Assembly (NCBI GenBank): GCA_024343425.1
Contig: BRLC01000014.1
Location: 248,001 to 312,000 of the forward strand
Length of the DNA stretch: 64,000 nucleotides
Reading direction: 5' to 3'
From: Rhizobiaceae bacterium MnEN-MB40S
GTDB lineage: Bacteria; Pseudomonadota; Alphaproteobacteria; Rhizobiales; Rhizobiaceae
Positions 28,598-50,585 of this stretch are shown here, piece after piece; the first letter of the stretch is position 1; every line of letters begins with the position of its first letter. A model generated the notes under the pieces. That model was not told where the DNA came from. It saw only the letters and a list, made by a program, of their open reading frames with translations, and did no database searches. Position numbers and translations under genes: made by a program.

Positions 28598-29371
28598 TTA
28601 GTGGCTCGGATTGCGCTGCAGCTCCATGGAATAGGTGAAACTGTCGCCGGGATGCCAGTTATACGAGGCGATCAGCGTGCCTTTGCGGGACGAATAGCGT
28701 CGCAACAGGCGAAGCGCCACGGCGCGAGGCTCCCGGCCCAGCGCATTGGCGATCGCCTTTGTCATCGGTTCGGCGCCGATTTCCTGGGAGGCGTTCGTGA
28801 TCGTCTCGCCGGAGCGTTCCTCAAGCAGCGCGTAAAGCGGTCCGACGCAGTCCGGAATGTCCGGTTCGATCGCGGCAAGCCGGTCGGGTATGTAGGAATG
28901 CGTGACGCAGATCGGCTCGCCGTTCTTGTGGGTCCGGCGCACGCTCTTGATTTCGAGCCATTGCGACCCGGCCTCGCCGCCGACCGCGGTCGCGATCTTC
29001 GCAGGCAGACGTATCTTCCTGATCGCGCGGATATCGAGGTGCGTGTCGAGCGCATACTGGAACAGGTCCGCCAGCGACCGGACCTGATGGACGAAATTGC
29101 GATGCGGCTCCGTGGCGATGATTTCGCTGCCGGAGCCCTGTCTGCGCGCGAGCATGCCCTGATCGACGAGGCGGCGCAGCGCCTCGCGCACCGTGTAGCG
29201 GCTGACGTTGAACTCGTCGCAGAACTCCACCTCCGTCGGCAGGTTGCTGCCGATCGGATAGGCGCCCGAGCTGATACGTTCACGCAGCATCGCATAGATC
29301 TGCTGGTAGCGCGGGCGGTCCGGCCCGCCCGTATCGATGTCCTGAATGACCATCTGTTCCATATCCGTCAC
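28598..29371 (-). CDS. GntR/HutC-family (UTRA) transcriptional regulator 1
   Basis: A 257-residue regulator. Residues about 20-90 form the GntR winged helix (SRYTVREALRRLVDQGMLARRQGSGSEI), and about 105-250 form a UTRA effector domain ending SYNWHPGDSFTYSMEL. The GTG at 29371 is the longest start; ATGs at 29362 and 29353 are alternatives. It closes the HMG-CoA-lyase-like operon and is clearly paralogous to the regulator at 50790-51575. It is a candidate reader of the TTTGTC-type operators across the island. Confidence 0.88.
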   Translation of the reverse strand: MTDMEQMVIQDIDTGGPDRPRYQQIYAMLRERISSGAYPIGSNLPTEVEFCDEFNVSRYTVREALRRLVDQGMLARRQGSGSEIIATEPHRNFVHQVRSLADLFQYALDTHLDIRAIRKIRLPAKIATAVGGEAGSQWLEIKSVRRTHKNGEPICVTHSYIPDRLAAIEPDIPDCVGPLYALLEERSGETITNASQEIGAEPMTKAIANALGREPRAVALRLLRRYSSRKGTLIASYNWHPGDSFTYSMELQRNPSH

Positions 29372-29465: not shown

Positions 29466-30098
29466 TCAGGCTGCGCGGGATTCGCCGAAATGGGCGTAAA
29501 TCTCGCTGCTCTCCATCAGGTCAGCGTATTTCTGACCCATGTCGAACAGGTTGGCGTTGTGGGGTTCAATGGCCCTGTCGCCCACGCAATCGGTCACCAC
29601 GATCGTCCCGAAATTGCTGCTGACGGAATCGATCACCGTCGCGCGGACGCATCCCGAGGTGGTGCAGCCCGTGACCAGCGTGGTGTCGACGCCGCGAAAT
29701 GTCAGCCAGGCGGCGAGCTCGCTGCCGAAGAAGGCAGACGCCTGGCGCTTGCACAGGATGAGTTCGCCCGGTCGCGGCGTCAGTTCCGGCACGATCTGCG
29801 ACAATTCGCTGTCCGGCGTCAGCTTCAGAAGACTGGGCACCTTGCGCGAAAACGCGCCGGCGTCCGATCCATCTTCCTGGTAGACCACGCGCGTATGGAC
29901 GATCGGCCACTCCTTCTTGCGCGCGAAAGCCAAGAGATCCACCGTCTTTTCGATGGCCGGCGGGATATTGCCGCCGCCGAAATGTTTCGCGTCCGTGAAG
30001 CCGATGACGAAATCGACAATGATCAGCGCCGGGCTCTTGCCCATGCCCACCGCATTGCCGAAGCCCTGGTTGCGATAAATTTCCTTTTCGTCGGCCAT
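29466..30098 (-). CDS. Isochorismatase-fold amidohydrolase 1 (N-carbamoylsarcosine/maleamate amidase-like)
   Basis: A 210-residue enzyme with an intact triad: Asp29 (IIVDFVIGF), Lys117 (ILCKRQASAFFG), Cys150 (GCTTSGCVRATV). The TTSGCVRA motif and the D-x-x-x-x-F start are typical of N-carbamoylsarcosine amidohydrolase and maleamate amidohydrolase (NicF) relatives. It therefore probably releases ammonia (and CO2 if the substrate is carbamoylated) from a linear half-amide. It lies 18 bp downstream of the HMG-CoA lyase-like gene. Confidence 0.87.
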   Translation of the reverse strand: MADEKEIYRNQGFGNAVGMGKSPALIIVDFVIGFTDAKHFGGGNIPPAIEKTVDLLAFARKKEWPIVHTRVVYQEDGSDAGAFSRKVPSLLKLTPDSELSQIVPELTPRPGELILCKRQASAFFGSELAAWLTFRGVDTTLVTGCTTSGCVRATVIDSVSSNFGTIVVTDCVGDRAIEPHNANLFDMGQKYADLMESSEIYAHFGESRAA

Positions 30099-30116: not shown

Positions 30117-31031
30117 TCAGGCGGCTTCGCCTCCCGCCGGTGGAAACATGCCGGCGCGCTGCAGCATGCCGGGCGGACTGACGCCGAGCGTTGCGCCGAG
30201 CCAGTGCGCGGTATCTATCAACGCCTCCGCGTCCACGCCGGTTTCGACGCCCATCCGGTCGAGCATGTAGACGAGGTCCTCGGTGGGGATATTGCCGGTC
30301 GCCGCCGGCGCAAACGGACACCCGCCGACGCCGCCGATGGATGAATCGATGCGGGCAACGCCGGATTCGATGGCGGCCACCACATTGGCGAGCCCGGTGT
30401 TGCGGGTGTTGTGCAGGTGGCATCGCAGCGGAATGCCGCCGGTTTCGCGGGCGACAGCGGAAAATTTGGCCTTGATGTCGCTCGGCGCCGCGACGCCGAT
30501 CGTGTCGGCGAGCGCAATCTCGAAAGGTTTGAGTTCGGCAAGCCTGGCGGCGATCTCCGTGACCCGCTCAACCGACACCTCGCCCTCGAACGGACAGCCG
30601 AAGGCGGCGCCGATCGTGACGCCCATGCGAACTCCGCTGTCATGCGCCATCGCCGCGATGCGGGCGATATCGGCCATCGTATCGTCGACGGCGACGCCCT
30701 GGTTGCGGCGGTTGAAGGTCTCGGTGGCGACGACGACGCAATTGACGTCCTCGAGGCCCGAAAGCCGCGCCCGCTCGAAGCCGCGTTCGTTGAGAACGAG
30801 GCCGATATAGCGCGTATCGGAGCGTTTTTTGAGACCCTGGGCGACCTCGCCCGCATCGGCCATCTGCGGCACGCGCTTCGGATTGACGAAACTGGTGACC
30901 TCGAACGCCCTGACGCCGGCCTCGGTCGCGCGGTCGATCAGCTCGAGCTTGGTTTGCGTCGACAGCAGGGTTTTCTCGTTCTGGATGCCGTCGCGTGGCG
31001 ATACTTCGATGATGTCGACCCTGGTCGTCAT
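30117..31031 (-). CDS. HMG-CoA lyase-family (hydroxyacyl-CoA) lyase
   Basis: A 304-residue TIM-barrel lyase that cleaves a 3-hydroxy-3-carboxyalkyl-CoA ester. Catalytic features: R13-D14 in SPRDGIQNE, metal-binding HLHN (205-208), and the signature SSIGGVGGCPFAP with Cys238. The start at 31031 places the first strand correctly; the longer frame to 31325 has no protein-like content. With a class III CoA transferase in the same island, the substrate may be HMG-CoA, citramalyl-CoA or a related branched ester. Operator site A lies 40 bp upstream. Confidence 0.88.
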   Translation of the reverse strand: MTTRVDIIEVSPRDGIQNEKTLLSTQTKLELIDRATEAGVRAFEVTSFVNPKRVPQMADAGEVAQGLKKRSDTRYIGLVLNERGFERARLSGLEDVNCVVVATETFNRRNQGVAVDDTMADIARIAAMAHDSGVRMGVTIGAAFGCPFEGEVSVERVTEIAARLAELKPFEIALADTIGVAAPSDIKAKFSAVARETGGIPLRCHLHNTRNTGLANVVAAIESGVARIDSSIGGVGGCPFAPAATGNIPTEDLVYMLDRMGVETGVDAEALIDTAHWLGATLGVSPPGMLQRAGMFPPAGGEAA

Positions 31032-31070
31032 GATGTCTCCGCCGCTGTGCGAGAATGCCTTTGGCTTCTC

Positions 31071-31227: not shown

Positions 31228-32304
31228 ATGTATGCTGCTGAACGGCAGGCCCCCGGAACGGAAGCGGATTTGTCAAAAGATATCGACAAGCTGAGACGCA
31301 AGCTGGAAAAACGCAATGCGCGCATCGACCACCTGGAAAGGCTGGTCGAGCGGCAAATGACGCTGCTCGATCGCTACGACCGGACTGCCGGCCGGCTGAA
31401 GAGCCGGGCCGAGGGTAGCGCGCTTCCGATGCGCGAGTTGTCTTCGCTCGACTACGAGCGCCTGATCGGGCTGCTTGACCGCGCCGTCGCCCGCGCCGAG
31501 CAACTGACCGGCGACAAGCAGAAGCTGCAGTCGAGCCTCGACCATACGCTGGGCCTGCTGGACCGGGCGTTGAGCGCGCAGGAACGCATGTCGAAGGCCG
31601 CCTCTACGCCCTCAACAGACCGCGATATCGACGCCACGGTTTCCAAATATGACGCCATGCTCGATCGATCGCTGGCGGCGCTCGAAGCCGCGCACAAGGC
31701 GAACCACAGCCAGAAGCAGGAGATCGAGCAGCGCGATCGCTATCTGAACCAGACGCTGGACGCCCTGCAAAAGGCAATCAGGATGCAGGAAACGATGTCG
31801 GACCGACTGGCCTCCGCATCCGGATCGACCGCTACGAAAACCGATGACGGCGCGGCCGATGCGACGATTGCGCGTTACGACGCCATGCTTGAACGGTCGC
31901 TCGCGGCCCTTGAAGCCGCGCGGCGGGAAAACGGCGGCTGGAAGCAGGAAATCGAGCAGCGCGACCGGTTCCTGAACCAGACGCTGGAGGCCCTGCAGAA
32001 TGCAATCAGGATGCAGGAGGATCTGTCGCAGCGATATATCTCCGCCCTGCAGTCGCAAGGCGGCGCCGTGAAAACGGATGTCGAGACCGGCGACGTCGAT
32101 GCGACGATCGCCCGCTACGACACCGTGCTGGAGCAGTCGCTTGCAGCGCTCGAAAAAGCCAATCAGTCCAATCAGGACCGAAAGAAGGAGATCGACCAGC
32201 GGGACCGGCTCCTGAGCCGAACGCTGGACGCGCTCCAGAACCTCATCGAGCAGGAAGGCGCGGCGCCGAAGGAACGCGGCGTGTTTTCCCGTTTGTTCGG
32301 CTAG
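31228..32304 (+). CDS. Coiled-coil protein with three internal repeats
   Basis: A 358-residue, highly charged, almost wholly alpha-helical protein without signal peptide or membrane segment. After a leading coiled coil (about 15-115), a 60-residue block repeats three times. The DAT of each block starts at residues 135, 211 and 291, followed by a KYDAML/RYDAML/RYDTVL step, SLAALE, an EIEQRDRxLNQTLDALQ stretch and, in blocks 1 and 2, MQE. It ends with GVFSRLFG, which resembles a C-terminal docking tail. Function unknown; it is the only rightward gene among leftward catabolic genes here. Confidence 0.75.
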   Translation: MYAAERQAPGTEADLSKDIDKLRRKLEKRNARIDHLERLVERQMTLLDRYDRTAGRLKSRAEGSALPMRELSSLDYERLIGLLDRAVARAEQLTGDKQKLQSSLDHTLGLLDRALSAQERMSKAASTPSTDRDIDATVSKYDAMLDRSLAALEAAHKANHSQKQEIEQRDRYLNQTLDALQKAIRMQETMSDRLASASGSTATKTDDGAADATIARYDAMLERSLAALEAARRENGGWKQEIEQRDRFLNQTLEALQNAIRMQEDLSQRYISALQSQGGAVKTDVETGDVDATIARYDTVLEQSLAALEKANQSNQDRKKEIDQRDRLLSRTLDALQNLIEQEGAAPKERGVFSRLFG

Positions 32305-32319: not shown

Positions 32320-32961
32320 TCAGTCGACAGCGTTGCTTTTCCTGATCTCCTCGAAATAGGCGAGAGACTCCTCGAGATCGAGGATGTCGCTGTAGCGGCG
32401 GCCGATGTCTCTGAGATTGTCGCGGTGCGGCCCCTCGTCCATGTCGGCGACGCAGGGTTCGGGAACCATCACCCGGAAGCCGTAGGAAAAGGCGTCGATG
32501 ACGCTGGCGCGGATGCAGCCGGACGTGGTGCAGCCGGTGACGAAGACGGTGTCGACCCGTTCCTTGATGAAGAGCTGGACGACGGCTGTCTGGAAGAAGA
32601 CCGAAGGTCCCGTCTTGCAGAACACCGTGTCGTAGGACGCGTCGTAGGTGCGCGGCTCGAACTCCGTGCCCGGCTTGCCGTGATGGAATTCGTTGACCAC
32701 CGTCGGCACCTTCCAGTAGGGCGCGTCGCGCGCGCTGGAATAAGCGGTGTAAACATTGGCGACCGGCGCGTTCGCCGCCCGCGCGGCCTTCAGCAGCGTC
32801 GCCGTCGCTTCGACGGCGGATCCGATCATCGGGCTCTTGCCGAGCGGAAAACCGGGATCGGTGAAGGCGGTCTGGAAATCGACGACGACGACGCCGGGCT
32901 TCTTGCCGAAACCGACCCTGGCGTCGGGCTGATACCCGAACGTTTCGTATGCATCCGTCAT
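32320..32961 (-). CDS. Isochorismatase-fold amidohydrolase 2
   Basis: A 213-residue paralogue with triad Asp28 (VVVDFQTAF), Lys116 (VFCKTGPSVFF) and Cys149 (GCTTSGCIRASV). It ends the hyuA-hyuB-yrdC-like operon; its ATG overlaps the stop of the yrdC-like gene by 4 bp. Coupling to a hydantoinase suggests that it removes the carbamoyl or amide group from the ring-opened product, as N-carbamoylsarcosine amidohydrolase does after N-methylhydantoinase. Confidence 0.87.
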   Translation of the reverse strand: MTDAYETFGYQPDARVGFGKKPGVVVVDFQTAFTDPGFPLGKSPMIGSAVEATATLLKAARAANAPVANVYTAYSSARDAPYWKVPTVVNEFHHGKPGTEFEPRTYDASYDTVFCKTGPSVFFQTAVVQLFIKERVDTVFVTGCTTSGCIRASVIDAFSYGFRVMVPEPCVADMDEGPHRDNLRDIGRRYSDILDLEESLAYFEEIRKSNAVD

Positions 32962-33692
32962 TGCGCTGTCCTTTCGTCGACGGTCAGCGACACGTCGAAC
33001 CGGTCCTGGAAGATTTCCTTCAGACGGTCGAAACAGACGCCGACGCGCACGACATGGAAATCCCTGAAATCGATGATGGTGCTGGAGCGCCCTTCGGCGT
33101 TGGCGTATTTGCTGAGGCCATGGTCGAGATGCGCATCGGCGGCCTGGCGAACCCGATCCTCGATATCCGTATAGCGGTATTTCGAGCCGGCGAGCGACGT
33201 GTTGGCCGATGAACCGAAGACGGGCTGTCCACGCTCGATCGATTGCCGGGCGACCTCGTTATGCACCAGGCCGGCGTTCAGCAGCATGTCGAGCGTGCCG
33301 GCCTTGGAGGAGTTGGCGAGCACGAAGGGCGCCACCCGGGCGAAGATCGGGTGATCCTCGCGGAAGGGAGCGACCACCGAGAACGGCAGCCGGTCCTCCT
33401 CGATGACGCTTTTGACCATGGCGTGCCGGTCGTCATCCATGATGTGGACTTCGCCGGAAAGCCCCCAGTTGCCGAACATGCCGGACGGCTTGTCGTAGGA
33501 GCGGTTCTTCGCGGTGAAGATCCGCTTGACGCCTTCTTCGCCGGACGCGACGATGGCGTAGGCGACGTCGAGCGGGATGATCGCCACCCCGCCGGCGTAG
33601 AGCGTGTCGAGCACCGACGACACCTCGCCGGCGAGTTGCGCCGGAGAGATAGGATCGTCAGTGCGGGACATTTCTCTCGCCGTCTGCTCCAT
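32958..33692 (-). CDS. Sua5/YciO/YrdC-domain protein in a catabolic operon
   Basis: A protein of about 244 residues with a YrdC fold: GGVAIIPLDVAYAIVAS, AKNRSYDKP (the KxR nucleotide-binding element) and SSANTSLAG are recognisable. Canonical family members make threonylcarbamoyl-AMP for tRNA modification. This one lacks the usual Sua5 C-terminal domain and sits between hyuB and an amidohydrolase, so a carbamoyl- or acyl-adenylate role in the pathway is possible. Start: ATG at 33692 follows a GTG at 33695; an ATG at 33671 has a better ribosome-binding site (GAGAG). Confidence 0.78.
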   Translation of the reverse strand: MEQTAREMSRTDDPISPAQLAGEVSSVLDTLYAGGVAIIPLDVAYAIVASGEEGVKRIFTAKNRSYDKPSGMFGNWGLSGEVHIMDDDRHAMVKSVIEEDRLPFSVVAPFREDHPIFARVAPFVLANSSKAGTLDMLLNAGLVHNEVARQSIERGQPVFGSSANTSLAGSKYRYTDIEDRVRQAADAHLDHGLSKYANAEGRSSTIIDFRDFHVVRVGVCFDRLKEIFQDRFDVSLTVDERTAQ

Positions 33693-33696
33693 CACG

Positions 33697-35598
33697 TCAT
33701 TCGGCGGCCTGCGCCGTCTTTTCGCGCTTCATCCATTTCTGGAAGATGGGCGCGCGCGGCGGATCGAGATGCGTTTCGGCGCGGCACCGCGCTTTCAGAT
33801 CCTCGATGCTGCCGCCGCGATCGAACATCGGCAGTTCGCCGCGGTCGGCCTCCATGCGTTCGCGCAGGCGCCTGGTTTCGCCCTCGTCGAGGGAGAAATC
33901 GTCGCGCAGCACCACGCCGTAGCGTCGCGCTCCTTCGACGGTGACCAGACCGCGCCGGGCGTCCATCGCGACCTTGGAGGCCTCGCGCTTCAGCGGGTCG
34001 CCCCAGCCGCCGCCGCCCCAGGTGTTGAAGAAGAGCGTGTCGCCGGGCTCGACCTTCACCTTGTCGCATTTCGACGGGAGATGCTCCTTCGAGCCGTCCT
34101 TGCGGGCAAGGAGCTTGGTGGAGCGCGCGCCCGGCGTGCCGCCGTTGACGCCCCACGGATAGGTGAGCCAGCGGTCGTCGTGGATCGAGATTTCGCCGGG
34201 TTCGAGGAACTGGTAACCCAGCGACACGCCGTTGCCGCCGCGGTGCAGACCGGCCCCGCCGGAATCCGGAATGGTCTCGTAGGTGACGATCCGAAGCGGG
34301 AAGTAAGCTTCCAGGAACTCGTTCGGCACGTTCATGAAGGCGGGCCACAGCGAGTGTCCGTCCGGACCGTCGCCAACCGGACGACCGGGAATTCCGCCGA
34401 AGCCGATCTGGTAAAGCTGGTACCACTCGCCTTCGGAATTGTAGCCCGAATACATGAAGTGCGGGCTGTCGGAGAAGCCGGCGGCGTTCAGCGCGTCCGG
34501 CGCTCCCTGGCCGAGCAGACCGCCCATGATGTCGAAGATGCGTCCGAGCATGTGGGTTCGGCAGGACAGCGCCGCCGGTCGCACCGGCTTGAGGATCGTG
34601 CCGCGCGGGATGCGGACCTCGACAAGCGGATAGAAGCCGTCATTGAACAGGATCTGCGGGTCGAACAGGTTGATCGTGAAGGCGCCGAGGAACATCTTGA
34701 ACATCTCCTCGTTCAGGAGAAAGTTCACCGAACTCACCGACTGCGGATCGGTGCCCTCGAAGTCGAAGATCGCCACGTCGCCTTCGCGCCACAGGCTGCA
34801 GGCCACCTTGTAGGGACCCATGCCGATGCCGTCGTCGTCGATATAGTCTTCGAAATAGAACTTGTTCGAGGATTCCGGAATCACCATGTGGATGATCGCC
34901 TTCATCGCCTGGAAGTTACGGTCGAGCATGTCTTCCATCGCGGAGTAGAAGGTATCGTCGCCGAAACGGTCGCAGATCTCGTGCACGCGGCGTTCGGCGA
35001 GCCTGAGGGCCGCGACGATGGCGTTGAAGTCCGACTTGTTCCACTCTTCCGTGCGCGTGTTGCGCAGGCACATGTTCAGGACTTCCTGGTTGACCTCGCC
35101 GCGATGGTAGATCTTCACCGGAGGGATCTGGATGCCTTCCTCGAAGATCATGTGCGCATCGGTCGGCAGACTGCCTGGCACCCGGCCTCCAACGTCCGTC
35201 AGGTGGCCGAACATCGCCGCCCATGCGACGTGTCTGCCTTCCCGGAAGATCGGCTTCATCGTCAGCCAGTCATTGAGATGGCTGACCGCCCCGTTACAGG
35301 AATACGGGTCGTTGGTCAGGAAGATGTCGCCATCCTCGATTACCCCGTCATAGCCTTCCGTGAAGCCGTGGATGAAGGAGCCGAACTGGCCGACGACCAT
35401 CTTGCCCGCCGAATTGGCGATCATGGGAAAGGCGTCGTGCTGTTCGCGGATGCCCGGCGACATGGCGGTGCGGAACAAGACAGCGTCCATTTCCGTTCGC
35501 GCGTTGCGCAGGGCGTTCTCGATGATGTCGAGGGTTATCGGTTCGACATCGACCCTGTTGAAGGGGGTGTCGTTTTTCTGAATGATCTTGGCCGGCAT
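33697..35598 (-). CDS. hyuB: Hydantoinase/oxoprolinase subunit B (HyuB family)
   Basis: A 633-residue subunit of an ATP-dependent cyclic-amide hydrolase or related carboxylase. Family marks include DPITLDIIENAL-like start, EQHDAFPMI, TNDPYSCNGAVSHLNDW, SGGAGLHRGGNG near 515, and WGGGGWGDPL near 560. It pairs with HyuA, 25 bp upstream. The family also covers acetophenone and acetone carboxylases, so substrate is open; with isochorismatase-fold amidases alongside, a hydantoin or other cyclic ureide/imide is plausible. Confidence 0.9.
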   Translation of the reverse strand: MPAKIIQKNDTPFNRVDVEPITLDIIENALRNARTEMDAVLFRTAMSPGIREQHDAFPMIANSAGKMVVGQFGSFIHGFTEGYDGVIEDGDIFLTNDPYSCNGAVSHLNDWLTMKPIFREGRHVAWAAMFGHLTDVGGRVPGSLPTDAHMIFEEGIQIPPVKIYHRGEVNQEVLNMCLRNTRTEEWNKSDFNAIVAALRLAERRVHEICDRFGDDTFYSAMEDMLDRNFQAMKAIIHMVIPESSNKFYFEDYIDDDGIGMGPYKVACSLWREGDVAIFDFEGTDPQSVSSVNFLLNEEMFKMFLGAFTINLFDPQILFNDGFYPLVEVRIPRGTILKPVRPAALSCRTHMLGRIFDIMGGLLGQGAPDALNAAGFSDSPHFMYSGYNSEGEWYQLYQIGFGGIPGRPVGDGPDGHSLWPAFMNVPNEFLEAYFPLRIVTYETIPDSGGAGLHRGGNGVSLGYQFLEPGEISIHDDRWLTYPWGVNGGTPGARSTKLLARKDGSKEHLPSKCDKVKVEPGDTLFFNTWGGGGWGDPLKREASKVAMDARRGLVTVEGARRYGVVLRDDFSLDEGETRRLRERMEADRGELPMFDRGGSIEDLKARCRAETHLDPPRAPIFQKWMKREKTAQAAE

Positions 35599-35623: not shown

Positions 35624-37828
35624 TCAGTTCACGGGGCGGATCAGCAGGCTGCCGACGGCGTCGACCTCCGCATAGTGATCCGGCAGGATGAGGGTAGTGG
35701 AATCCATCTCCGTCACGATGGCGGGTCCGTTGATGCGGTCACCCGTTCTCAACTTTTCGCGGTCGTAGATGGCGGCCTTCCGATCTTCCCCGTCACAGAA
35801 CACCGTAGTCTCGGCGGTTTTCGCCCGGGACGGATCGCCGCCGCCCGTTTCGAGCTTGCGCGCCGTCACCATGGTTTCCTTGCCCTGAACCACGGCCCTG
35901 AGATTGACCAGTTCGTGCGGCTGGTCGAGGTTGAAGGTGAACATCTGGTGATGCATGTCGTCAAAGTGCTTCGTGACGCCCTTCAGGCCCTCGCGGTCGA
36001 AATGTTCCGGCGTCACCGGAACCGAGAGCGAGGTGCCCTGGCCGGCGTAACGCAGGTCGATTTCGTAAGCCACGGTCTGATCGTGACGCTCGACGCCTTC
36101 GCCCTCGAGGCTCTTGGCGGCCTGGCTCGCCAGTTCCTCCAGTTCGTCCCGGATTGTCCGGTCGCTGGTGTTTTCCACCCGCACAACGAGCGTGCGCGAG
36201 GCTTCGTCGCGCAGACGGGTTGTCGCGTCGCCGGAGGCGCAAAGCACGCCTGGACCGGGAGGCACGATAACCGGCCACGATCCCATGAGTTTGGCGAGCG
36301 CATTGGCGTGCAGCGGTCCTGCGCCGCCAAAGGCCACAAGCGCAAAGTTGCGCGGGTCGTAGCCCTGCTCGACGGAAACAAGCCGGAGCGCGCCGAACAT
36401 GTTCTCGTTGACGATGTCGTAAATGCCTTCAGCCGCCTTCTTCACCGGCAGGCCGAGCGCATCGGCGTCGGTCCCGACAGCTTTTTCAGCCAGCGAGTCG
36501 TCCATCGCCATGTCGCCGCCGAGACGAGCCGCGGCCGGCAAGTAGCCGAGAACGATATTGGCGTCGGTCACGGTCGGCTCCACGCCGCCGCGGCCATAGG
36601 CGGCCGGCCCCGGATCGGCGCCGGCGGATTTCGGACCGACGCGGAGCGCCTTGGTGAGTTCGGGCACATAGGCGACCGAACCGCCGCCAGCGCCTACAGT
36701 CCGCACATCGATGGAGGGCGCGCGCACCGTCACGTCGGCGACGCGCGTCTCGCGCCGCGTCTGGGCGACGCCGTTCTGGATCAGCGCCACGTCCGTCGAG
36801 GTGCCGCCCATATCGAAGGTCAGCAGATCTTCGTAGCCGGACTGTTTGGCGATCCAGATGGCGCCCGATACCCCGCCGGCCGGACCCGACATCAGCAGGT
36901 TGACCGGCGCCGACTTGGCCGCGTCTGCGGACGACAAGCCGCCGTCGGAACGCAGGATCTGGAGGCGAACGCCGTTCATGCGGCGATCGAGTTCGCCATG
37001 CAGGTTCTCGACATATTTGGCGACGACCGGGCGGATATAGGAATTGACGACGGTCGTTTCCGTCCGCTCGTATTCGTACATTTCCGGCATGACTTCCGAT
37101 GAAATGGACACCGGAATGCCTGGCAGCACGGACTGGGCCACATCACGCACCATGCGCTCGTGTACGCCGTTGGTGTAGGCGTTGTAGAGGCTGACGGTCA
37201 GGGCCTGGATGTCTCCGTCCTTCAGAACCTGAAGATCGCGCCGCAACTGGTCCTCGTCCAGCGGTTCGACCACAGTTCCGTCGGCTGCGATGCGTTCATT
37301 CGCCTCGATGGTGAGTTCCAGCGGGGCGAGCGGATCAGACTTGTTATAGATGACCCAGCCGCCGAGACCGCCCGGCACAAACGACCGGGCGATCTGCAGC
37401 ACCTGCCGGTAACCACGGGTAGTTACCAGTCCAACCAGCGCGCCTGATCCGGTCAGAACGGTGTTGGTGGCGACGGTGGTTCCATGCATCACATAGTTGA
37501 TTTCGGTGGGATCGATGCCGGCCTGGCTACAGATCCGCTCAATGCCGTTGAGAACGCCGATCGAGGAGTCCTTGGGCGTCGAAGACACCTTGGCCACGTG
37601 TGTTTCGCCCGAACGTTCGTCGATGAGCATGAGGTCGGTGAACGTTCCGCCCACGTCCACGCCAAGGCGATAGCCCTCGCCGATGCGCGGAACATTCCTC
37701 CGGGCCGCAATCTGCGTCGCCGGCGGCGTTTCGTCGCCATCCATGAACGCTTCCATGCGGCGCAGCCGCGCTTCCAGTTCGGCGATCCGCTGTTCGTACT
37801 TGCGAACCGAGTCGTCAGAATTACTCAT
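35624..37828 (-). CDS. hyuA: Hydantoinase/oxoprolinase subunit A (HyuA family) with coiled-coil leader
   Basis: A 734-residue ATP-binding subunit: GVDVGGTFTD (56-65) is the N-terminal phosphate-binding motif, HGTTVATN follows, FDMGGTSTDV forms the second half of the actin-like ATPase site, and the C-terminal swivel domain ends near residue 730. Unusually, residues 9-29 are a heptad coiled coil (YEQRIAELEARLRRME) preceding the enzyme. The sugar-type ABC permease of the neighbouring operon carries almost the same leader. The start at 37828 has an AAGGCG ribosome-binding site. Confidence 0.9.
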   Translation of the reverse strand: MSNSDDSVRKYEQRIAELEARLRRMEAFMDGDETPPATQIAARRNVPRIGEGYRLGVDVGGTFTDLMLIDERSGETHVAKVSSTPKDSSIGVLNGIERICSQAGIDPTEINYVMHGTTVATNTVLTGSGALVGLVTTRGYRQVLQIARSFVPGGLGGWVIYNKSDPLAPLELTIEANERIAADGTVVEPLDEDQLRRDLQVLKDGDIQALTVSLYNAYTNGVHERMVRDVAQSVLPGIPVSISSEVMPEMYEYERTETTVVNSYIRPVVAKYVENLHGELDRRMNGVRLQILRSDGGLSSADAAKSAPVNLLMSGPAGGVSGAIWIAKQSGYEDLLTFDMGGTSTDVALIQNGVAQTRRETRVADVTVRAPSIDVRTVGAGGGSVAYVPELTKALRVGPKSAGADPGPAAYGRGGVEPTVTDANIVLGYLPAAARLGGDMAMDDSLAEKAVGTDADALGLPVKKAAEGIYDIVNENMFGALRLVSVEQGYDPRNFALVAFGGAGPLHANALAKLMGSWPVIVPPGPGVLCASGDATTRLRDEASRTLVVRVENTSDRTIRDELEELASQAAKSLEGEGVERHDQTVAYEIDLRYAGQGTSLSVPVTPEHFDREGLKGVTKHFDDMHHQMFTFNLDQPHELVNLRAVVQGKETMVTARKLETGGGDPSRAKTAETTVFCDGEDRKAAIYDREKLRTGDRINGPAIVTEMDSTTLILPDHYAEVDAVGSLLIRPVN

Positions 37829-42255: not shown

Positions 42256-43086
42256 ATGCCGGTCGCGCGCATCAACGGTCACAACATGTATTACGAGGTC
42301 CATGGCGAGGGGCCGCCCGCCATCTGCATGGGCGGCTGGGGCACCTATTGCCACGGCCAGCACCATCACCTCGCCCGCAGCCTCAAGGACAATTATCAGG
42401 TCGCGATCTTCGATCACCGCGGCATCGGCCAGTCGGATGACGATCCTTCCGTCGCCCCCGGCATGCAGCTCTACGCCGGAGACGTCGCCGGACTGCTCGA
42501 CCATCTCGGCTGGAGCGACGTGCACGTCGTCGGCCTTGTCGGCATGGGCGCCTGTATCGGCCAGGAACTGGCGATTGCCCGGCCGGACCTGGTGCGCTCC
42601 ATGGTCAATATGGGCACCTGGGCGAAGCCGGACGCGCTCTTTCGCCACCAGATGGAAATGCTGCGCGACGTCCACCGCGAGATGGGATGGGAGGCTTTCC
42701 AGAAGCTGGTTTGCCTGTGGTCCTTCGACGAGGACTACTATCTCGCCAATCATGACCGTATTCTCGGGCCGGAGGGGCCGTGGCGCGAACTGCGCGACCG
42801 ATTCGAGGCCCATGACAGGCTCATTCAGTCGTGCCTTTCGCACGACGTGACGGACCGGCTCGGACAGATTTCAGCGCCCTGCCTCATCGTCCATTGCCCG
42901 CTCGACACCGTCACCGGACCGCGGCTGACGAAACCGATCGAGGCGATGATACCGAATGCGCGCGGCTACGTGCTCGAAGGAGCCGCCCATGTGGTGGCGG
43001 GCCCGGAGATGCGCAAACGCTTTTCCGATGTTCTGGGTGAATTCCTCAACGAAACTGACAATGCAATGGAGGTGGCGACACGATGA
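42256..43086 (+). CDS. Alpha/beta hydrolase-fold protein lacking the nucleophile serine
   Basis: A 276-residue alpha/beta hydrolase homologue. The core motifs FDHRGIGQSD (52-61), Asp217 (VHCPLDTVTG) and His245 (EGAAHVV) are those of the carbon-carbon/ester hydrolase group. At the nucleophile elbow, however, it reads VVGLVGMGAC (91-100), where the family has G-H-S-M-G-G; Gly96 or Val95 replaces Ser. It is thus either a binding protein, a cofactor-free lyase-like enzyme, or uses another residue such as nearby Cys100. It overlaps the CoA transferase start by 4 bp. Confidence 0.82.
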   Translation: MPVARINGHNMYYEVHGEGPPAICMGGWGTYCHGQHHHLARSLKDNYQVAIFDHRGIGQSDDDPSVAPGMQLYAGDVAGLLDHLGWSDVHVVGLVGMGACIGQELAIARPDLVRSMVNMGTWAKPDALFRHQMEMLRDVHREMGWEAFQKLVCLWSFDEDYYLANHDRILGPEGPWRELRDRFEAHDRLIQSCLSHDVTDRLGQISAPCLIVHCPLDTVTGPRLTKPIEAMIPNARGYVLEGAAHVVAGPEMRKRFSDVLGEFLNETDNAMEVATR

Positions 43087-44324
43087 GTGCGAGTTTGACA
43101 GGCAAGGCGCGGAAAGCGACCGGATCCGGCCCGCTTTCCGGAATCCGGGCAATCGAGGTCGGCCAGCTTCTGGCCGGTCCCTTCGTCGGTAGCCGGCTTG
43201 CCGATTTCGGCGCCGAGGTCATCAAGGTCGAGCCGCCGGTCAAGGGCGATCCGATGCGCGACTGGGGTCACCACCGCTATAACGGCCACGGCCTGTGGTG
43301 GCCGACGCTGGCGCGCAACAAGAAATCGGTGACGGCCAACCTGCGCGATCCGCGCGGCCGCGACCTGTTGCGGCGGCTTGCCGCCGAGGCGGACGCCATG
43401 GTCGAGAATTTCAAGCCCGGAACACTGGAGAAATGGGATCTCGGGCCGGACGAACTGCACAAGGAAAACCCCGGGCTGGTGATCGCCCGCGTCTCCGGCT
43501 TCGGCCAGACGGGCCCCTATTCGGAACGGCCGGGATTCGCCAGCGTCGGCGAGGCGATGGGCGGGATCCGCTACATCAACGGTTTTCCCGACCAGCCACA
43601 GCCGCGTTTCGGAATCTCGCTCGGCGACACGCTCACGGCGCTTTTTGCATTCGAGGGCCTTCTGATGGCGCTCTACTGGCGCGACGCCGGCGGCGGCGGC
43701 AAAGGCCAGGTCGTCGACGCAGCGATCGTTGAGAGCTGCTTCTCGATGCTTGAAAGCACCCTGCCCGAATATGACAAATGCGGCGTCGTCCGCAAACCGT
43801 CCGGAACGGGTCTGCCCAATGTGGCGCCGTCGAACATCTATCCGACCAACGACGGCGGCTATATCGTGATCGCCGCCAATGTGGACCCGATGTTCCGCCG
43901 GCTTTGCGCCGCGATGGGCCAGCCTGAACTGGCCGAGGATCCGCGCTTTTCCACGCATCTGGCGCGCGGCGACCACGTCGAACTGCTCGACGGCATGATC
44001 GGCGAATGGACGAGCACATTGTCGCCGAAAGACCTCGGCGCAATTCTCGACGAGCACGGCGTCGTCTACGGACCGATCAATTCGATCGCCGAAATCGCCG
44101 AGGACCCGCATTTCAAGGCGCGCGATATGATCTTGCGTGTCGAGGACGAGCGCTTCGGAGACATCGCCGTTCCCGGCATCGCTCCGAAGCTTTCCGAGAC
44201 GCCTTGCGAGGTCAACTGGCTCGGCCGCGACGAGCCGGGCAAGGACAACGAGGCGATCTATGGCGAACTGCTGGGGCTCGACACAAAGGCCCTGTCAGAG
44301 CTGACCGAGGAAGGCGTTATCTAG
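43083..44324 (+). CDS. Class III CoA transferase (CaiB/BaiF family)
   Basis: A 413-residue CoA transferase. The CoA-binding entry (IEVGQLLAGPFVGSRLADFGAEVIKVEPP) and the catalytic Asp182 in GISLGDTLTALFAFEG, equivalent to Asp169 of formyl-CoA:oxalate CoA transferase, are intact. It would transfer CoA from a donor such as succinyl-CoA to an organic acid produced by the pathway, feeding the HMG-CoA-lyase-type enzyme. It ends the rightward operon and converges with the lyase gene (8-bp 3' overlap). Confidence 0.9.
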   Translation: MSASLTGKARKATGSGPLSGIRAIEVGQLLAGPFVGSRLADFGAEVIKVEPPVKGDPMRDWGHHRYNGHGLWWPTLARNKKSVTANLRDPRGRDLLRRLAAEADAMVENFKPGTLEKWDLGPDELHKENPGLVIARVSGFGQTGPYSERPGFASVGEAMGGIRYINGFPDQPQPRFGISLGDTLTALFAFEGLLMALYWRDAGGGGKGQVVDAAIVESCFSMLESTLPEYDKCGVVRKPSGTGLPNVAPSNIYPTNDGGYIVIAANVDPMFRRLCAAMGQPELAEDPRFSTHLARGDHVELLDGMIGEWTSTLSPKDLGAILDEHGVVYGPINSIAEIAEDPHFKARDMILRVEDERFGDIAVPGIAPKLSETPCEVNWLGRDEPGKDNEAIYGELLGLDTKALSELTEEGVI

Positions 44325-45189
44325 CCTTCGCCAGCTTTTCCTCGAAAGCCCATATTTCGGGGAAGCCCATGAGTTCGTTGAACCGGGAGAAGTCGTAGAG
44401 CTCGACGGCGTCGGTGGTTTCACCGTTGGCCTTCAGATCTCCATAGGCTTTCTCGAGCGCGGCGCCCATCGAGAGAAAGCCGATCGCGGGGTGGATGCCG
44501 ATCGCATAACCCAACGCCTTCAGCCGGTCTTCGGACAGGGTCGGGGTCATGCCGCCATTGACCATGTTGGCGAACAGCGGCGCATCGATCGCCTCGGCGA
44601 CACGCTTCATCTCGTCTTCGCTTTCCGGCGATTCGACAAAAACCACATCCGCGCCTGCCTTCGCGAAGGCCTGGCCGCGTCTGATCGCCTCGTCCAGCCC
44701 GTAGCCGGTGCGGGCGTCCGTCCGGGCGATGATCAGGAAATCATCGCTTTGCCGGCTCTCGACAGCCGTCTCGATCTTGAGCAGCATGTCGTCCAGCGCG
44801 ATCACGCGACGATTGGGCGTGTGCCCGCACTTCTTCGGAAACTCCTGATCTTCGATCTGGATGGCGCTGACACCTGCGCGTTCGTAACCGCGAACGGTGT
44901 GACGGACATTGAGCGGGCCGCCGTAACCGGTGTCGGCGTCGGCGATGACAGGCGTCTTCGTCCGCTCGACGATGCAGGCGATACGGTCGATCATATCGGT
45001 GTAGGTCGCAAGCCCCGCATCGGGCAGGCCGAGATAGGAGGCCACGGTTCCGTAGCCGGTCACGTAGAGCGCCTTGAAGCCCATCGAATCGGCGATGAGC
45101 GCCGAAATCAGTTCAAATACGCCGGGTGCGGTGACGAACTCACCCGATTGCAAAGCTCTCCTGAGGGCAGGATCGGCCATTGAGGACAT
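44317..45189 (-). CDS. Isocitrate lyase/PEP mutase-family lyase 1
   Basis: A 290-residue TIM-barrel enzyme. The metal-binding IADADTGYG (82-90) and the catalytic loop KKCGH (119-123) are present; Cys121 marks C-C lyases such as 2-methylisocitrate lyase and 2,3-dimethylmalate lyase rather than PEP mutase. It probably splits a substituted malate or citrate into two acids. It is about 75% identical by eye to the lyase at 48948-49817. Start at 45189 by comparison with that paralogue; 45180 is an alternative. It has its own promoter with site C. Confidence 0.88.
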   Translation of the reverse strand: MSSMADPALRRALQSGEFVTAPGVFELISALIADSMGFKALYVTGYGTVASYLGLPDAGLATYTDMIDRIACIVERTKTPVIADADTGYGGPLNVRHTVRGYERAGVSAIQIEDQEFPKKCGHTPNRRVIALDDMLLKIETAVESRQSDDFLIIARTDARTGYGLDEAIRRGQAFAKAGADVVFVESPESEDEMKRVAEAIDAPLFANMVNGGMTPTLSEDRLKALGYAIGIHPAIGFLSMGAALEKAYGDLKANGETTDAVELYDFSRFNELMGFPEIWAFEEKLAKAR

Positions 45190-45411: not shown

Positions 45412-46053
45412 TCACGCGGATATCTTCGTCTTCTCGAAATAGTCGAGAATCTCGTCCTCGCCGACGACGTCACCGTATTTGGCGTCCATGTCGAACAGAT
45501 TGGCCTCGTGGGGAGAGGCATGCCGGTCACCCACCGCTTCGCGCGCGATGATTGGAATGAAACCGTGGGAGCAGCAGTCGACGCAGGTCGCCCGGACACA
45601 GCCGCTTGTGGTGACGCCTGTGTGAATTAACGTGTCGACGCCGAGCGTCGCCAGCGTCGATGCCAGCGACGTGCCGAAGAAGGCGCTGGGATACTGTTTC
45701 GAGATCACGATCTCGTTGTCGGCGACGTCCAGCCCTTCCGGCCAGGCGCCCATGGGGTTGCCTGCAATGAAGTTCCGCAGCGGCCTGGCCTTCTGGAAGA
45801 ACCGCCCGCCATCGCAGCCACCAGCCTGATAGACGACATTGGTCAGGATGACCGGCACGCCGCATTCGCGCGCCTTGTCGCGTATCCTGAGCGCCGATTT
45901 GAGCGTGTCCTCCACGCCGGCGTAAAGCTCGCACTCCGGTTCGAAGTAGGCTTGTACGAAATCGATCATGATCAGCGCGGGTCTGACGCCGAAACCGATC
46001 CGGTTGTCATAGGCCCGCTTGTAGTTGTCGAGAAGGTTTTCGCTGGTGCTCAT
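45412..46053 (-). CDS. Isochorismatase-fold amidohydrolase 3
   Basis: A 213-residue paralogue with Asp31 (IMIDFVQAY), Lys119 (VISKQYPSAFFG) and Cys152 (TTSGCVRATC). It ends the racemase-lyase-SDR-leuC-leuD operon and overlaps the leuD-type stop by 4 bp. The tight link to a hydro-lyase of unsaturated dicarboxylates favours a maleamate- or citraconamate-like half-amide as substrate. Confidence 0.87.
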   Translation of the reverse strand: MSTSENLLDNYKRAYDNRIGFGVRPALIMIDFVQAYFEPECELYAGVEDTLKSALRIRDKARECGVPVILTNVVYQAGGCDGGRFFQKARPLRNFIAGNPMGAWPEGLDVADNEIVISKQYPSAFFGTSLASTLATLGVDTLIHTGVTTSGCVRATCVDCCSHGFIPIIAREAVGDRHASPHEANLFDMDAKYGDVVGEDEILDYFEKTKISA

Positions 46054-46691: not shown

Positions 46692-46693
46692 GG

Positions 46694-48097
46694 TCACAAC
46701 AGCTCCCGCACGTCGGTGATCTTTCCGGTCACGGCGGCGGCTGCGGCCATCGGCGGGCTCATCAGGTGAGTGCGCCCGCCCTTGCCCTGGCGACCTTCGA
46801 AATTGCGGTTGGAGGTTGAGGCGCAGCGCTCGCCCTCTGTCAGCCGGTCGTCGTTCATCGCAACGCACATCGAACATCCCGCGTCTCGCCATTCGAAGCC
46901 GGCGGACAGGAATATCTCGTGCAGGCCCTCGCGCTCCGCGGCGATCTTGACGGCGGCCGATCCGGGCACCGCGATCGCCTTGACGCTGTCCGCCACCTTC
47001 CTGCCGGAAAGCACCTTCGCAGCTGCCCGCAGGTCTTCCAGGCGGCCATTGGTGCAGGATCCGACGAAAACGCGGTCGACTGCGATGTCGCGAATTGCCG
47101 TTCCAGGCTCCAGCCCCATATAGGCAAGGCTCTTGCGAATCCTCGATTTGCTGTTCTGATCGGGCTCCCGTTCCGGATCGGGCACGTAACCGGTGACGGC
47201 GCATGTGTGCTCCGGGGTCGTTCCCCAGGAGACCTGCGGGGCCAGATCAGCGGTATTGAACGTCACCTCGCGATCGAAAACCGCGTCCGCGTCGCTGTGC
47301 AGACCGGACCATGCTTCCATGGCCTGCTTCCAGGCTTCGCCTGACGGCGCCAGCGGACGGCCTTCGAGAAACGCGAAGGTCTTGTCGTCCGGCGCCACGA
47401 TGCCGACCCGGCTGCCGGCTTCAATCGACATGTTGCAAAGCGTCATGCGCGCCGCCATCGACAGCTCGCGCACGGTGGACCCGGCGTATTCCAGGGCGTA
47501 TCCCACGCCGCCGCCGGTGCCGATTTCCGCGATGAGGGCCAGAATGACGTCCTTGACGGTCACGCCGTCCGGCAACCCGCCCTCCAGATTGACCCGCATC
47601 GTCTTCTGCTTGCGCTGGCGAAGCGTTTGCGTCGCGAAGATGCTGGTGCATTCGCTGGCGCCGATGCCGAAGGCGATGCATCCGAAGGCGCCATGGGTGC
47701 AGGTGTGACTGTCTCCACACACAAGAACGACGCCAGGCAAGGTAAATCCCAATTCCGGGCCGATGACGTGAACGATGCCATGCCGTTCGCCATCCATCGG
47801 CATATAGGCGATGCCGTGTTTCGCGGCGTTTTCCTTGAGGCGTTCGACCTGTGAAAACGCCAGGCCTTCCGCGAACGGCCTGTCGCCGCGCAAGGTCGGC
47901 ACGGCGTGGTCGGCGACGGCGATGTGCGCCTCCGGACAGCGGACCTTCCGTCCATCCTGGTCTAGGGCTGCAAAAGCCTGCGGGCTCGATACTTCCTGCA
48001 CCAGGTGGCGATCGACATAGATCAGGTGCTCGCCATTGCCGCGGTCAGCGACCACGTGGCTGTCCCAGATCTTGTCATAAAGCGTTTGCGCGACCAT
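46694..48097 (-). CDS. Aconitase-family hydro-lyase, large subunit (LeuC type)
   Basis: A 467-residue catalytic subunit. The 4Fe-4S ligands are Cys in VFVGSCTNGR and the pair in GCSMCVA; the substrate loop VCGDSHTCTHGAFG is intact. The length and start (TLYDKIWDSH) are very LeuC-like; I set the start at 48097 to match. Genes for leucine synthesis are absent, while a PEP-mutase-family lyase and an amidase share the operon. This parallels the dimethylmaleate hydratase/dimethylmalate lyase pairing known from anaerobic nicotinate breakdown. Confidence 0.9.
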   Translation of the reverse strand: MVAQTLYDKIWDSHVVADRGNGEHLIYVDRHLVQEVSSPQAFAALDQDGRKVRCPEAHIAVADHAVPTLRGDRPFAEGLAFSQVERLKENAAKHGIAYMPMDGERHGIVHVIGPELGFTLPGVVLVCGDSHTCTHGAFGCIAFGIGASECTSIFATQTLRQRKQKTMRVNLEGGLPDGVTVKDVILALIAEIGTGGGVGYALEYAGSTVRELSMAARMTLCNMSIEAGSRVGIVAPDDKTFAFLEGRPLAPSGEAWKQAMEAWSGLHSDADAVFDREVTFNTADLAPQVSWGTTPEHTCAVTGYVPDPEREPDQNSKSRIRKSLAYMGLEPGTAIRDIAVDRVFVGSCTNGRLEDLRAAAKVLSGRKVADSVKAIAVPGSAAVKIAAEREGLHEIFLSAGFEWRDAGCSMCVAMNDDRLTEGERCASTSNRNFEGRQGKGGRTHLMSPPMAAAAAVTGKITDVRELL

Positions 48098-48113
48098 TAC
48101 CGATACTCCAACC

Positions 48114-48845
48114 TCACGGCATGTATGCGCCGCCATTGACCCAAAGCACCTGGCCGGTCATGTAGGCGCTGTCGGATCCAAGCAGAAAGCGGATCGGCCC
48201 GACGATGTCTTCCGGCTCGGCGACGCGCGCGAGCGGAATGACGCTGACATATTTTTCGAGATCGACTTCGATTTCGGCGGTTTCATCGGAGATGCCCGTG
48301 CCGCCGTGCGAGAACGCCGTGTCGACAAAGCCGGGCGCCACGGTGTTGACCCGCACCTTCGGCGACCATTCGAGCGCCAGCGTATTGGCCAGCGCCATCA
48401 GGCCGGCTTTGGCCGACGCATAGGAAACAAAGCCGGGGCGAATGTAGCGGCCAAGGCCGGAGGCGATCATGACGACGCTGCCGCCATCGGACATCAAAGG
48501 CATGATGGCCTTCGCAGACAGGAAGGCGCCGCGCAGGTTTCCGGAAACAACATTGTCGAAATAGTCCGTTGGCGTGTCGGCCACGGAATGGATCGAGGGA
48601 TTGTAGCCGGCCAAATGGACATATCCGTCAACTGACGGCCAATGGTCGGCGAGTTCACGCGCAGCGGTGTTGATCGCCTCCTCCGACAGCACATCGATCT
48701 CGATCGTCCGCGTCGTGGGGCGATGGCGTTCGATCGATGCCGGAAGGTCGAGAACGACGACATCGTCCCCTGCTTCCGTCAGCGCCGCGACGAGGGCGCG
48801 CCCGATGCCCCCTGCCCCGCCAAGGATCGCGATCCGGCGGCTCAT
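48114..48845 (-). CDS. Short-chain dehydrogenase/reductase 1
   Basis: A 243-residue Rossmann-fold oxidoreductase. The nucleotide motif GGAGGIGRAL (about 8-17) binds NAD(P); HLAGYNP stands for the usual NNAG, so the NAG motif is altered. Catalytic residues are Ser in MIASGLG and Tyr-Lys in SYASAKAG. The start at 48845 has GGAGG 8 bp upstream. It lies between lyase 2 and the LeuC-type gene and should oxidise or reduce a hydroxy/keto intermediate. Confidence 0.87.
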   Translation of the reverse strand: MSRRIAILGGAGGIGRALVAALTEAGDDVVVLDLPASIERHRPTTRTIEIDVLSEEAINTAARELADHWPSVDGYVHLAGYNPSIHSVADTPTDYFDNVVSGNLRGAFLSAKAIMPLMSDGGSVVMIASGLGRYIRPGFVSYASAKAGLMALANTLALEWSPKVRVNTVAPGFVDTAFSHGGTGISDETAEIEVDLEKYVSVIPLARVAEPEDIVGPIRFLLGSDSAYMTGQVLWVNGGAYMP

Positions 48846-48947
48846 CGCACGCGCCTCCAATGCGGAAACTCGAATGTCTTGCGAGACGCTTGCATCTTTG
48901 TCATCTCAAATCTTTCCCGAAGGACCATCGCCCGAACCGCCACTATT

Positions 48948-49817: not shown

Positions 49818-49838
49818 TCGTTTCTTTCTGGCGTCGCG

Positions 49839-50585
49839 TCAGTGGCTGGAAAGGAGGCGACCAAATGGCTGGAACCGGTCCTGCAGGCCGACGGCCCGCA
49901 GCATCGACCAGAAGGTCGCCTGATTGGAGGTGACGACCGGCACGCCCAGTTCAGCCTCGAGGCTTTCGACCAGAGGCAGGGTCGGAAAATCGGTGCAGGT
50001 GACAAGAAGCGCGTCACTGCCCGGAACAAAGGCCGCCCTCGCGTGGTCTGCGACGGCGTCGAGCGGCGTCTTCGCGATGCGCGGGTACTCGCTGGGCCCG
50101 CCGGCGCCAATGCCGAGCCCGATCAGCCGCAGCACCTCGAAGCCGTGGGCTTCCAGAAATTCGGTTTCATGGGCGTTCAGGGCGTCGGCATAGGGGGTTG
50201 CGACGGAAAGCTTGACCACGCCGAGCGTTTTCAAGGCGTCCACGATCGCAGCCGACGTCGTGACGCATTGTCGACCGGTGCGTTCGCTCAGCCTGGCGGG
50301 CATCGACTGCGCAGGCGTTATCATGGAGCCGGCCGTGCAGGCATAGGCGATCGCATCGGCGCCGCACTGGGCAAGCATGCCGATCGCCGCATCGAGGTCG
50401 GCGTAGAGCGCGGCTTCGCCGGCTTCAGTATGCGTATCGGAGTGCAGTTTCATCCTGTGGGTGTGGTATGTCACACCGTCTGGAACCATGCGCGCCCACT
50501 CCGCCTCGTTGACGGTGTTCGTCGGCGGAACGATGAGCCCGAGTTTGGCCCGGCTGGAATAGGTGGACTGGTGTTTTGCTTTCAT
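49839..50585 (-). CDS. Maleate isomerase/arylmalonate decarboxylase-family protein 1
   Basis: A 248-residue member of the Asp/Glu racemase superfamily. Both catalytic Cys are present: Cys83 in AYACTAGS and Cys197 in LLVTCTDFPT, as in maleate cis-trans isomerase; the N-terminal LIVPPTNTVNE loop also fits. It probably isomerises a cis-unsaturated dicarboxylate or racemises a ring-derived acid. It is the first gene of a leftward six-gene operon, 50 bp after site D. Confidence 0.85.
   Translation of the reverse strand: MKAKHQSTYSSRAKLGLIVPPTNTVNEAEWARMVPDGVTYHTHRMKLHSDTHTEAGEAALYADLDAAIGMLAQCGADAIAYACTAGSMITPAQSMPARLSERTGRQCVTTSAAIVDALKTLGVVKLSVATPYADALNAHETEFLEAHGFEVLRLIGLGIGAGGPSEYPRIAKTPLDAVADHARAAFVPGSDALLVTCTDFPTLPLVESLEAELGVPVVTSNQATFWSMLRAVGLQDRFQPFGRLLSSH

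Follow-up and report, generated by a model that had tools for sequence, protein, structure and literature searches.

Gene organization of the YrdC locus

The window analysed here, a 64,000-nucleotide stretch of a contig of Rhizobiaceae bacterium MnEN-MB40S, encompasses a block of minus-strand genes in the order hyuA (37828-35624), hyuB (35598-33697), a YrdC-like gene and a gene for an isochorismatase-fold hydrolase (32961-32320). An earlier note on this DNA had placed a YrdC-domain protein at 32958-33692, giving no strand. We found at this position an intact minus-strand open reading frame that starts with the ATG at 33692 (or, alternatively, with a GTG at 33695), ends at 32958 and encodes 244 amino acids; plus frame 1 of the same interval is broken by a stop, the coding strand being the minus one. 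In Pfam, PF01300 is the sole domain of the product at E <= 0.01 (41.9 bits against a cut-off of 25.1, E 1e-10).

The coupling of this gene into a hydantoinase-amidase operon, as described in the same note, is borne out by the Pfam assignments of the neighbours (HyuA, HyuB, Isochorismatase) and by the junctions. The TGA of hyuB is followed, after one base, by the GTG/ATG of the YrdC-like gene (a gap of 1-4 nt), and the TGA of the latter shares 4 nt (ATGA) with the start of the gene for the isochorismatase-fold hydrolase, so that the suggested stop-start overlap exists at the downstream junction, whereas hyuB is close without overlapping. The description of the protein as shortened applies in comparison with Sua5, given that the SUA5 domain is lacking, but not in comparison with E. 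coli TsaC (244 vs 190 aa). The gene order of the operon is repeated in the same-genus genome G001 and in loci L019-L022, of which L019 is from Flavimaribacter sediminis. The window and G001 copies of the YrdC-like gene differ by 35 synonymous and 11 non-synonymous substitutions (dN/dS 0.09), and dN/dS relative to L020 is 0.20; another same-genus genome, G002, encodes a copy that is 93% identical at the protein level, as found by protein search. The genes of the window discussed here are the following.

28598..29371, minus: GntR/UTRA-type regulator (PF00392, PF07702)
29466..30098, minus: second isochorismatase-fold hydrolase (PF00857)
30117..31037, minus: HMG-CoA-lyase-like protein (PF00682; PRK05692 at 310 bits, cut-off 246)
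32320..32961, minus: isochorismatase-fold hydrolase, N-carbamoylsarcosine amidohydrolase-like (PF00857; 26st, E 1.7e-36)
32958..33692, minus: YrdC/TsaC-like protein, 244 aa (PF01300, AlphaFold2 model, Foldseek)
33697..35598, minus: HyuB, hydantoinase B/oxoprolinase (PF02538, 488.5 bits)
35624..37828, minus: HyuA, hydantoinase A/oxoprolinase (PF01968, PF05378, PF19278)
43083..44324, plus: presumed CaiB/BaiF-type CoA-transferase (named by the look of the sequence; CaiB query for the neighbourhood counts)
44317..45180, minus: PEP-mutase/isocitrate-lyase superfamily lyase (PDB relatives)
45412..46053, minus: third isochorismatase-fold hydrolase, N-carbamoylsarcosine amidohydrolase-like (PF00857; 26st, E 6.9e-45)
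46694..48136, minus: aconitase-family large subunit, LeuC-like (blast cluster with a Variovorax CP063167 gene)
49839..50585, minus: arylmalonate decarboxylase/maleate isomerase family protein (PF17645, 113 bits)

When the hydrolase adjoining the YrdC-like gene is aligned to its best solved relative, the N-carbamoylsarcosine amidohydrolase 26st, D28, K116 and C149, which we take to be the catalytic triad, fall on identical residues. The best solved relative of HyuB is the N-methylhydantoinase 7hk5 (E 4.4e-65); neither HyuB (215 vs 1000 bits, beta model) nor HyuA (545.5 vs 1000 bits, alpha model) reaches the cut-off of the respective caprolactamase model. Judging by its position, the GntR/UTRA-type regulator possibly controls the YrdC cluster. 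The cluster is split by a plus-strand gene (31228-32304) for a 358-aa coiled-coil-like protein with 'KQEIEQRDRxLNQTLDALQ'-like repeats, for which no Pfam family exceeds its cut-off; G001 has a counterpart in the equivalent position (L016).

A second catabolic block spans 43083-50585 and contains two PEP-mutase-family-like lyases along with CaiB-like, CSHase-like, LeuC-like and SDR-like genes and the maleate-isomerase/arylmalonate-decarboxylase relative, some of these names being assigned by eye. The lyase at 44317..45180 matches the petal death protein in PDB (3.8e-56) and also methylisocitrate lyase and 2,3-dimethylmalate lyase; the LeuC-like gene shares a blast cluster with an annotated 3-isopropylmalate dehydratase large subunit of Variovorax CP063167, and the small subunit, by the look of the sequence, is presumably encoded directly downstream; and the protein at 49839..50585 matches arylmalonate decarboxylase (1.9e-21) and a putative maleate isomerase (2.8e-20). 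Judged purely by family resemblance, this block suggests breakdown of substituted maleate or malate.

Extent and phylogeny of the YrdC-like family

A contig scan yielded 138 stretches with the pattern, among which 102 were relatives and 80 were kept, 96 to 42% identical; by their titles, the kept relatives come mostly from alphaproteobacteria, with some from beta- and gammaproteobacteria. With the window genome included in each sample, the family is present in 2 of 397 order-level, 31 of 385 class-level and 2 of 398 phylum-level genomes; the searches of these samples were not uniform, with either a single protein at E 1e-8 or alignment A2 at 1e-15. Five of the class genomes (G463, G591, G688, G728 and G794) contain weaker matches only, with the best E values ranging from 4.0e-35 to 3.7e-29.

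A phylogeny of the operon-linked YrdC proteins, proposed as a check in the earlier note, places them in a clade of their own: in an 86-row tree, a branch with SH-aLRT 100 and length 4.19 separates 69 family rows from 14 alphaproteobacterial Sua5. E. coli YciO, the single YciO in the tree, also falls outside the clade, but on a long branch; the tree comes from a quick search in which E. coli TsaC, YciO and HypF all have long branches, and it does not place the sister group. Two deeper relatives (L125 and L126), 24-28% identical, adjoin genes that look like TENA/THI-4/PqqC; their context differs from that of the family, and perhaps so does their function.

A phage or plasmid origin of the gene was considered and rejected: a search of 50,697 phage records at E 1e-5 came out empty, two queries of viral contigs gave no confirmed relative, and the plasmid records contain a single match, in a 2.5-Mb Variovorax replicon.

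The YrdC-like gene as a paralogue beside the housekeeping TsaC/Sua5

The earlier note held that its proposal would fall if this were the only TsaC/Sua5 of the genome and hence the housekeeping enzyme, which at first sight seems to be the case. The window assembly (G000) indeed has no PF01300 match besides the YrdC-like gene, but this assembly, in 26 contigs, is 79.31% complete and lacks the region in which Sua5 would be expected: the 20-kb Sua5 region of G001 finds in it only four short, weak matches (63-79% identity), so that the Sua5 block is missing as a whole. Sua5_C is likewise absent from the 79% complete assembly, and PF00814 has one match there, partial (covering 24-131 of the 264 model positions, within a frame of 241 aa), which we read as TsaB rather than TsaD. 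Both other genomes of the same genus that we found, G001 and G002, are 99% complete and encode, in addition to the YrdC-like gene, a Sua5-like protein (356-aa frame) that gives a strong, full-length match to PF01300.

More broadly, 31 of the 32 genomes with the family or its deeper relatives, a set that includes the five with weaker matches, contain a stronger PF01300 match elsewhere (E 8.1e-34 or better). Only in G638 (98% complete) was no stronger PF01300 match found; two genomes with the same genus code, G727 and G804, do have one. The YrdC-like gene is thus a paralogue, given the coexisting Sua5-like gene in both same-genus genomes and the stronger PF01300 match in 31 of the 32. The protein itself does not reach TIGR00057 (threonylcarbamoyl-AMP synthase), scoring 41.2 bits where 123.2 are required, and no C-terminal SUA5 domain was found in its 244 residues by Pfam at E <= 0.01.

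In G002, the PF01300 search skipped the 93% identical family member that the protein search detected, so Pfam under-reports this clade.

Conserved ATP site and altered threonine site

The AlphaFold2 model of the YrdC-like protein, built from a 53-row alignment, has a pLDDT of 95.9. Its best Foldseek match is S. tokodaii Sua5 with threonine and AMPPNP (E 5.8e-13), and it matches Sua5/TsaC2 complexes holding threonine, ATP, N-carboxythreonine or TC-AMP. By structural Z score, SMU.1377c (PDB 3l7v; 22.4) is tied with Sua5/TsaC2 (21-22), followed by 1k7j (18.8), which we take to be YciO; E. coli TsaC, then HypF (13.5-16.2) and TobZ (about 10), are weaker matches. SMU.1377c is also the nearest solved sequence (phmmer 7.3e-6), although only about 18% identical, and keeps the threonine in 'PTKVGY'.

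In PMC10321239, roles are assigned to an ATP-binding tetrad, KxR/SxN, and to the threonine-site residues T33, S181 and R195 (Pa-Sua5 numbering). The TsaC type is further recognized by Thr/Ser138 (E. coli TsaC numbering), where Sua5 has Pro. We counted the corresponding residues in 67 family rows, excluding L125 and L126, and in 14 Sua5 sequences and E. coli TsaC, YciO and HypF. The tetrad (K62, R64, S162, N164) is invariant in all 67 members. So are S161, which is of the TsaC/HypF type and is replaced by Pro in 14/14 Sua5, and K68, which is Lys in TsaC and HypF and Asn in 14/14 Sua5. Within the threonine site, the residue at the S181 position (S204) is kept in 65/67 and that at the R195 position (R216) in 67/67; given that E. 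coli HypF likewise has Arg in the R195 column, these residues are no proof of an amino-acid site. The T33 column (residue 41 of the window protein), by contrast with the Thr of 14/14 Sua5, E. coli TsaC and YciO (Gly in HypF), is occupied in the family by Leu (43, including the window protein), Val (8), Met (8), Asn (5), Ile (1), Phe (1) and Thr (1), so that the T33/S181/R195 set is incomplete. The only member with Thr in this column is L120, from genome G638, the one family-bearing genome of 32 in which no stronger PF01300 match was found. The Arg of the 'AVR' motif (position 137 of the window protein), kept in 14/14 Sua5, E. coli TsaC and YciO (Met in HypF), is found in 0/67 members (Leu 66, Val 1). 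Together, the invariant tetrad and the loss of both the T33-type Thr and the AVR Arg indicate that, as far as the alignment underlying our statements on the pocket goes, the family has conserved the ATP-handling side of the site and remodelled that for threonine.

The family thus has the fold, the KxR/SxN tetrad and the threonine-site Ser and Arg in common with TsaC and Sua5 (TsaC2), but differs from them in the loss of Thr and Arg, the lack of a SUA5 domain, the failure to reach TIGR00057 and the catabolic neighbourhood. With the YrdC domains of HypF and the O-carbamoyltransferases (TobZ, GdmN), as represented by E. coli HypF, it shares the Thr/Ser preceding SxN, Lys68 and the absence of the threonine-site Thr and of the AVR Arg; unlike HypF and TobZ, which are YrdC-Kae1 fusions and the weaker structural matches, the YrdC-like protein is stand-alone, with no Kae1 domain. 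YciO is, like the family, a TsaC paralogue, but E. coli YciO has RxL/SxM and retains both Thr and Arg in our alignment. In PMC12506659, YciO is presented as an unsolved TsaC paralogue with largely conserved active-site residues and a conserved basic surface patch; in E. coli, it sits beside rnm (PMC12506659).

Catabolic neighbourhoods across the family

Among 50 non-redundant loci, taken from 69 non-redundant sequences after omission of the window itself and of short loci, the genes located within 6 kb of the YrdC-like gene include isochorismatase-type hydrolases (18 loci), MmgE/PrpD (18), HyuB (13), CaiB (13), PEPM (11), PF01425-type amidases (11), HMGL (9), HyuA (9) and LeuC (3). These counts are lower bounds because many flanks are incomplete; 10 of the 50 loci have none of the tested partners within 6 kb. 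In 20 control Sua5 loci from family-bearing genomes, one of them only 7 kb long, CaiB was found within 6 kb in 4 and the other partners in 0; at 10 kb, HyuA (2), HyuB (2) and isochorismatase (1) also appear. The theme common to the family is broader than that of the window operon: C-N bond hydrolysis side by side with dehydratases, lyases and CoA enzymes that act on di- and hydroxy-acids.

Typical gene orders were read from locus maps drawn with a home-made ORF caller (some long ORFs are antisense artefacts); the labels derive from blast clusters and are in part supported by Pfam. The order hyuA-hyuB-YrdC-isochorismatase is found in the window genus and in Aquibium, and several marine alphaproteobacteria have hyuA-hyuB-PEPM-isochorismatase-YrdC facing HMGL and CaiB. 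Other arrangements are PrpD-YrdC-isochorismatase-TRAP and YrdC accompanied by TRAP genes and a PF01425 amidase. In Variovorax, a tandem pair of YrdC genes precedes an annotated CoA ligase gene and LeuC/LeuD, and a Roseovarius MAG combines a CoA-ligase-like gene with a TRAP-type transporter, YrdC, LeuC and another YrdC copy. Some loci also contain amidase-like genes (by Pfam on one representative) and genes that, by the look of the sequence, are presumably D-hydantoinase- and creatininase-like. Of the 44 families of 36 scanned neighbours, the 25 listed include neither a Kae1-like nor a carbamoyltransferase family, and no Kae1-type protein showed up among the neighbours with a label.

Several loci encode two YrdC copies. 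We compared five such pairs (L090, L093, L097 and L105 also have two copies and lie outside this comparison). Four pairs are strongly diverged (L047, 37%; L096, 36%; L103, 36%; L098, 35% identical), with Leu/Val at the T33 column in one copy and Met/Asn in the other; the copies of L013 (13986-15480), 54% identical, both have Asn. The pairing suggests two substrates or a heteromer.

Possible functions of the YrdC-like protein

We tentatively propose that the YrdC-like protein is a catabolic adenylate-forming, TsaC-like enzyme with a substrate other than threonine, a candidate function to which we assign a probability of about 0.45. A different small molecule is probably activated because the ATP site is kept whereas the threonine-handling residues are lost. 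Under this scheme, ATP and a pathway acid would bind in the TsaC pocket, and a carboxylate, or an N-carboxylate formed from CO2 and an amine, would be adenylated to yield an acyl- or carbamoyl-adenylate and pyrophosphate. The substrate would be a pathway intermediate from the breakdown of amides, hydantoins or dicarboxylates, and the activated product would be handed to partner enzymes of the same cluster. The proposal builds on the fold, the separate clade, the invariant ATP tetrad, the lost threonine-site residues, the tight spacing and catabolic linkage of the genes, the stronger PF01300 gene elsewhere in related genomes and the dN/dS values, whereas active adenylation, substrate choice and hand-over are inferred. 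Known YrdC enzymes (TsaC, HypF, TobZ) feed a Kae1-type protein, and that none was seen among the labelled neighbours and listed families counts against the scheme, as do the 10 loci with no tested partner within 6 kb, the partners that control loci also pick up at 10 kb, and G638. As a more specific case within it, the protein could represent a new class of adenylate-forming enzymes on the YrdC fold that adenylates dicarboxylates (citramalate-, methylisocitrate- or dimethylmalate-like) for CoA/amide chemistry. N-carboxythreonine, the species adenylated by TsaC, is isosteric with a 2-substituted succinate, with CH2 in place of NH, and a pocket in which the polar Thr and Arg are replaced by Leu could take dicarboxylates. 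Such an activity would account for the genes found nearby, PrpD, LeuCD, PEP-mutase-type lyases, CaiB, HMGL and CoA ligases as well as amidases; as formulated, we nevertheless consider it unlikely.

The setting closest to the earlier note is a ureide-specific one, in which a carbamoyl-type adenylate, made from carbamoyl phosphate (as by HypF and TobZ) or from an amino acid and bicarbonate, would act alongside HyuAB and the CSHase-like hydrolase in breaking down hydantoins and N-carbamoyl amino acids. Locally, this frame is reasonable because HyuB and the hydrolase (as well as the one at 45412..46053) have N-methylhydantoinase and N-carbamoylsarcosine amidohydrolase, respectively, as their best solved relatives, that is, both types of enzymes of the creatinine/N-methylhydantoin route have relatives in the operon; we know of no YrdC protein in that route. 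The HypF-like residue pattern, with S161 and Lys68 invariant, and the D-hydantoinase-, creatininase- and amidase-like genes of some loci point the same way. The ureide-directed look of the window partners does not, however, extend to the family, in which HyuB was found within 6 kb in only 13/50 loci, while PrpD and isochorismatase-type genes reach 18/50 each; this favours a broader carboxylate/amide role over one confined to ureides. Furthermore, re-carbamoylation of the hydrolase product would presumably be futile, and no carbamoyltransferase or Kae1-like family is among those listed for the neighbours, so that we regard the ureide-specific version as rather unlikely.

Two further readings dispense with a new adenylation activity. 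A conserved YrdC pocket need not imply catalysis: the protein could have lost adenylate formation and act as a ligand-binding sensor or as a chaperone for the partner enzymes. The replaced threonine-site residues and the paired diverged copies, which could form a heteromer, are compatible with this, but the invariance of the ATP tetrad, Lys68 and R216 in 67/67 members, compared to E. coli YciO, which differs at 3/4 tetrad positions, makes it unlikely. That the protein is the threonylcarbamoyl-AMP synthase of the genome, or a spare one, might be argued from its being the only PF01300 match in the window assembly, from the intact ATP-site residues and from G638 without a stronger match. The sub-threshold TIGR00057 score, the lost threonine-site Thr and AVR Arg, the Sua5-like genes coexisting in G001 and G002, the stronger PF01300 matches in 31/32 genomes, the Sua5 region missing as a block from the window assembly and the presence of the family in only 2/397 genomes of the order render this highly improbable, and we dismissed a housekeeping TsaC/Sua5 role on these grounds.

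Two other ideas were discarded. HyuA, which has an actin-like fold, could have been a Kae1-like acceptor of the adenylate, but is not supported as a general one, being found within 6 kb in only 9/50 loci. A title cited in PMC9654439 refers to a hydantoin form of the tRNA ct6A base; breakdown of this form was dropped because the neighbours with a label include no conspicuous gene for nucleoside handling.

Relation to previously described YrdC proteins

YrdC-fold enzymes make carbamoyl-type adenylates in tRNA modification, hydrogenase maturation and antibiotic carbamoylation. We found no description of a catabolic YrdC clade in the open-licence papers searched, among which none combines YrdC with hydantoinase or N-carbamoylsarcosine with Sua5, and none of the matches listed combines MmgE with Sua5; YrdC or Sua5 occurs together with isochorismatase in three papers that, by title and abstract, deal with biofilm growth, SigB regulation and ribose transcriptomics. 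The PF01300 similarity network in PMC12506659 hides clusters under 40 nodes, and the YciO section of that paper mentions no catabolic group. A clade with an intact ATP site, a rebuilt substrate site and catabolic gene clusters would extend carbamoyl-adenylate chemistry to catabolism. The 'Sua5/YciO/YrdC' annotations in such genomes are not to be taken as denoting t6A enzymes, and the clear operon contexts make the question of the substrate testable.
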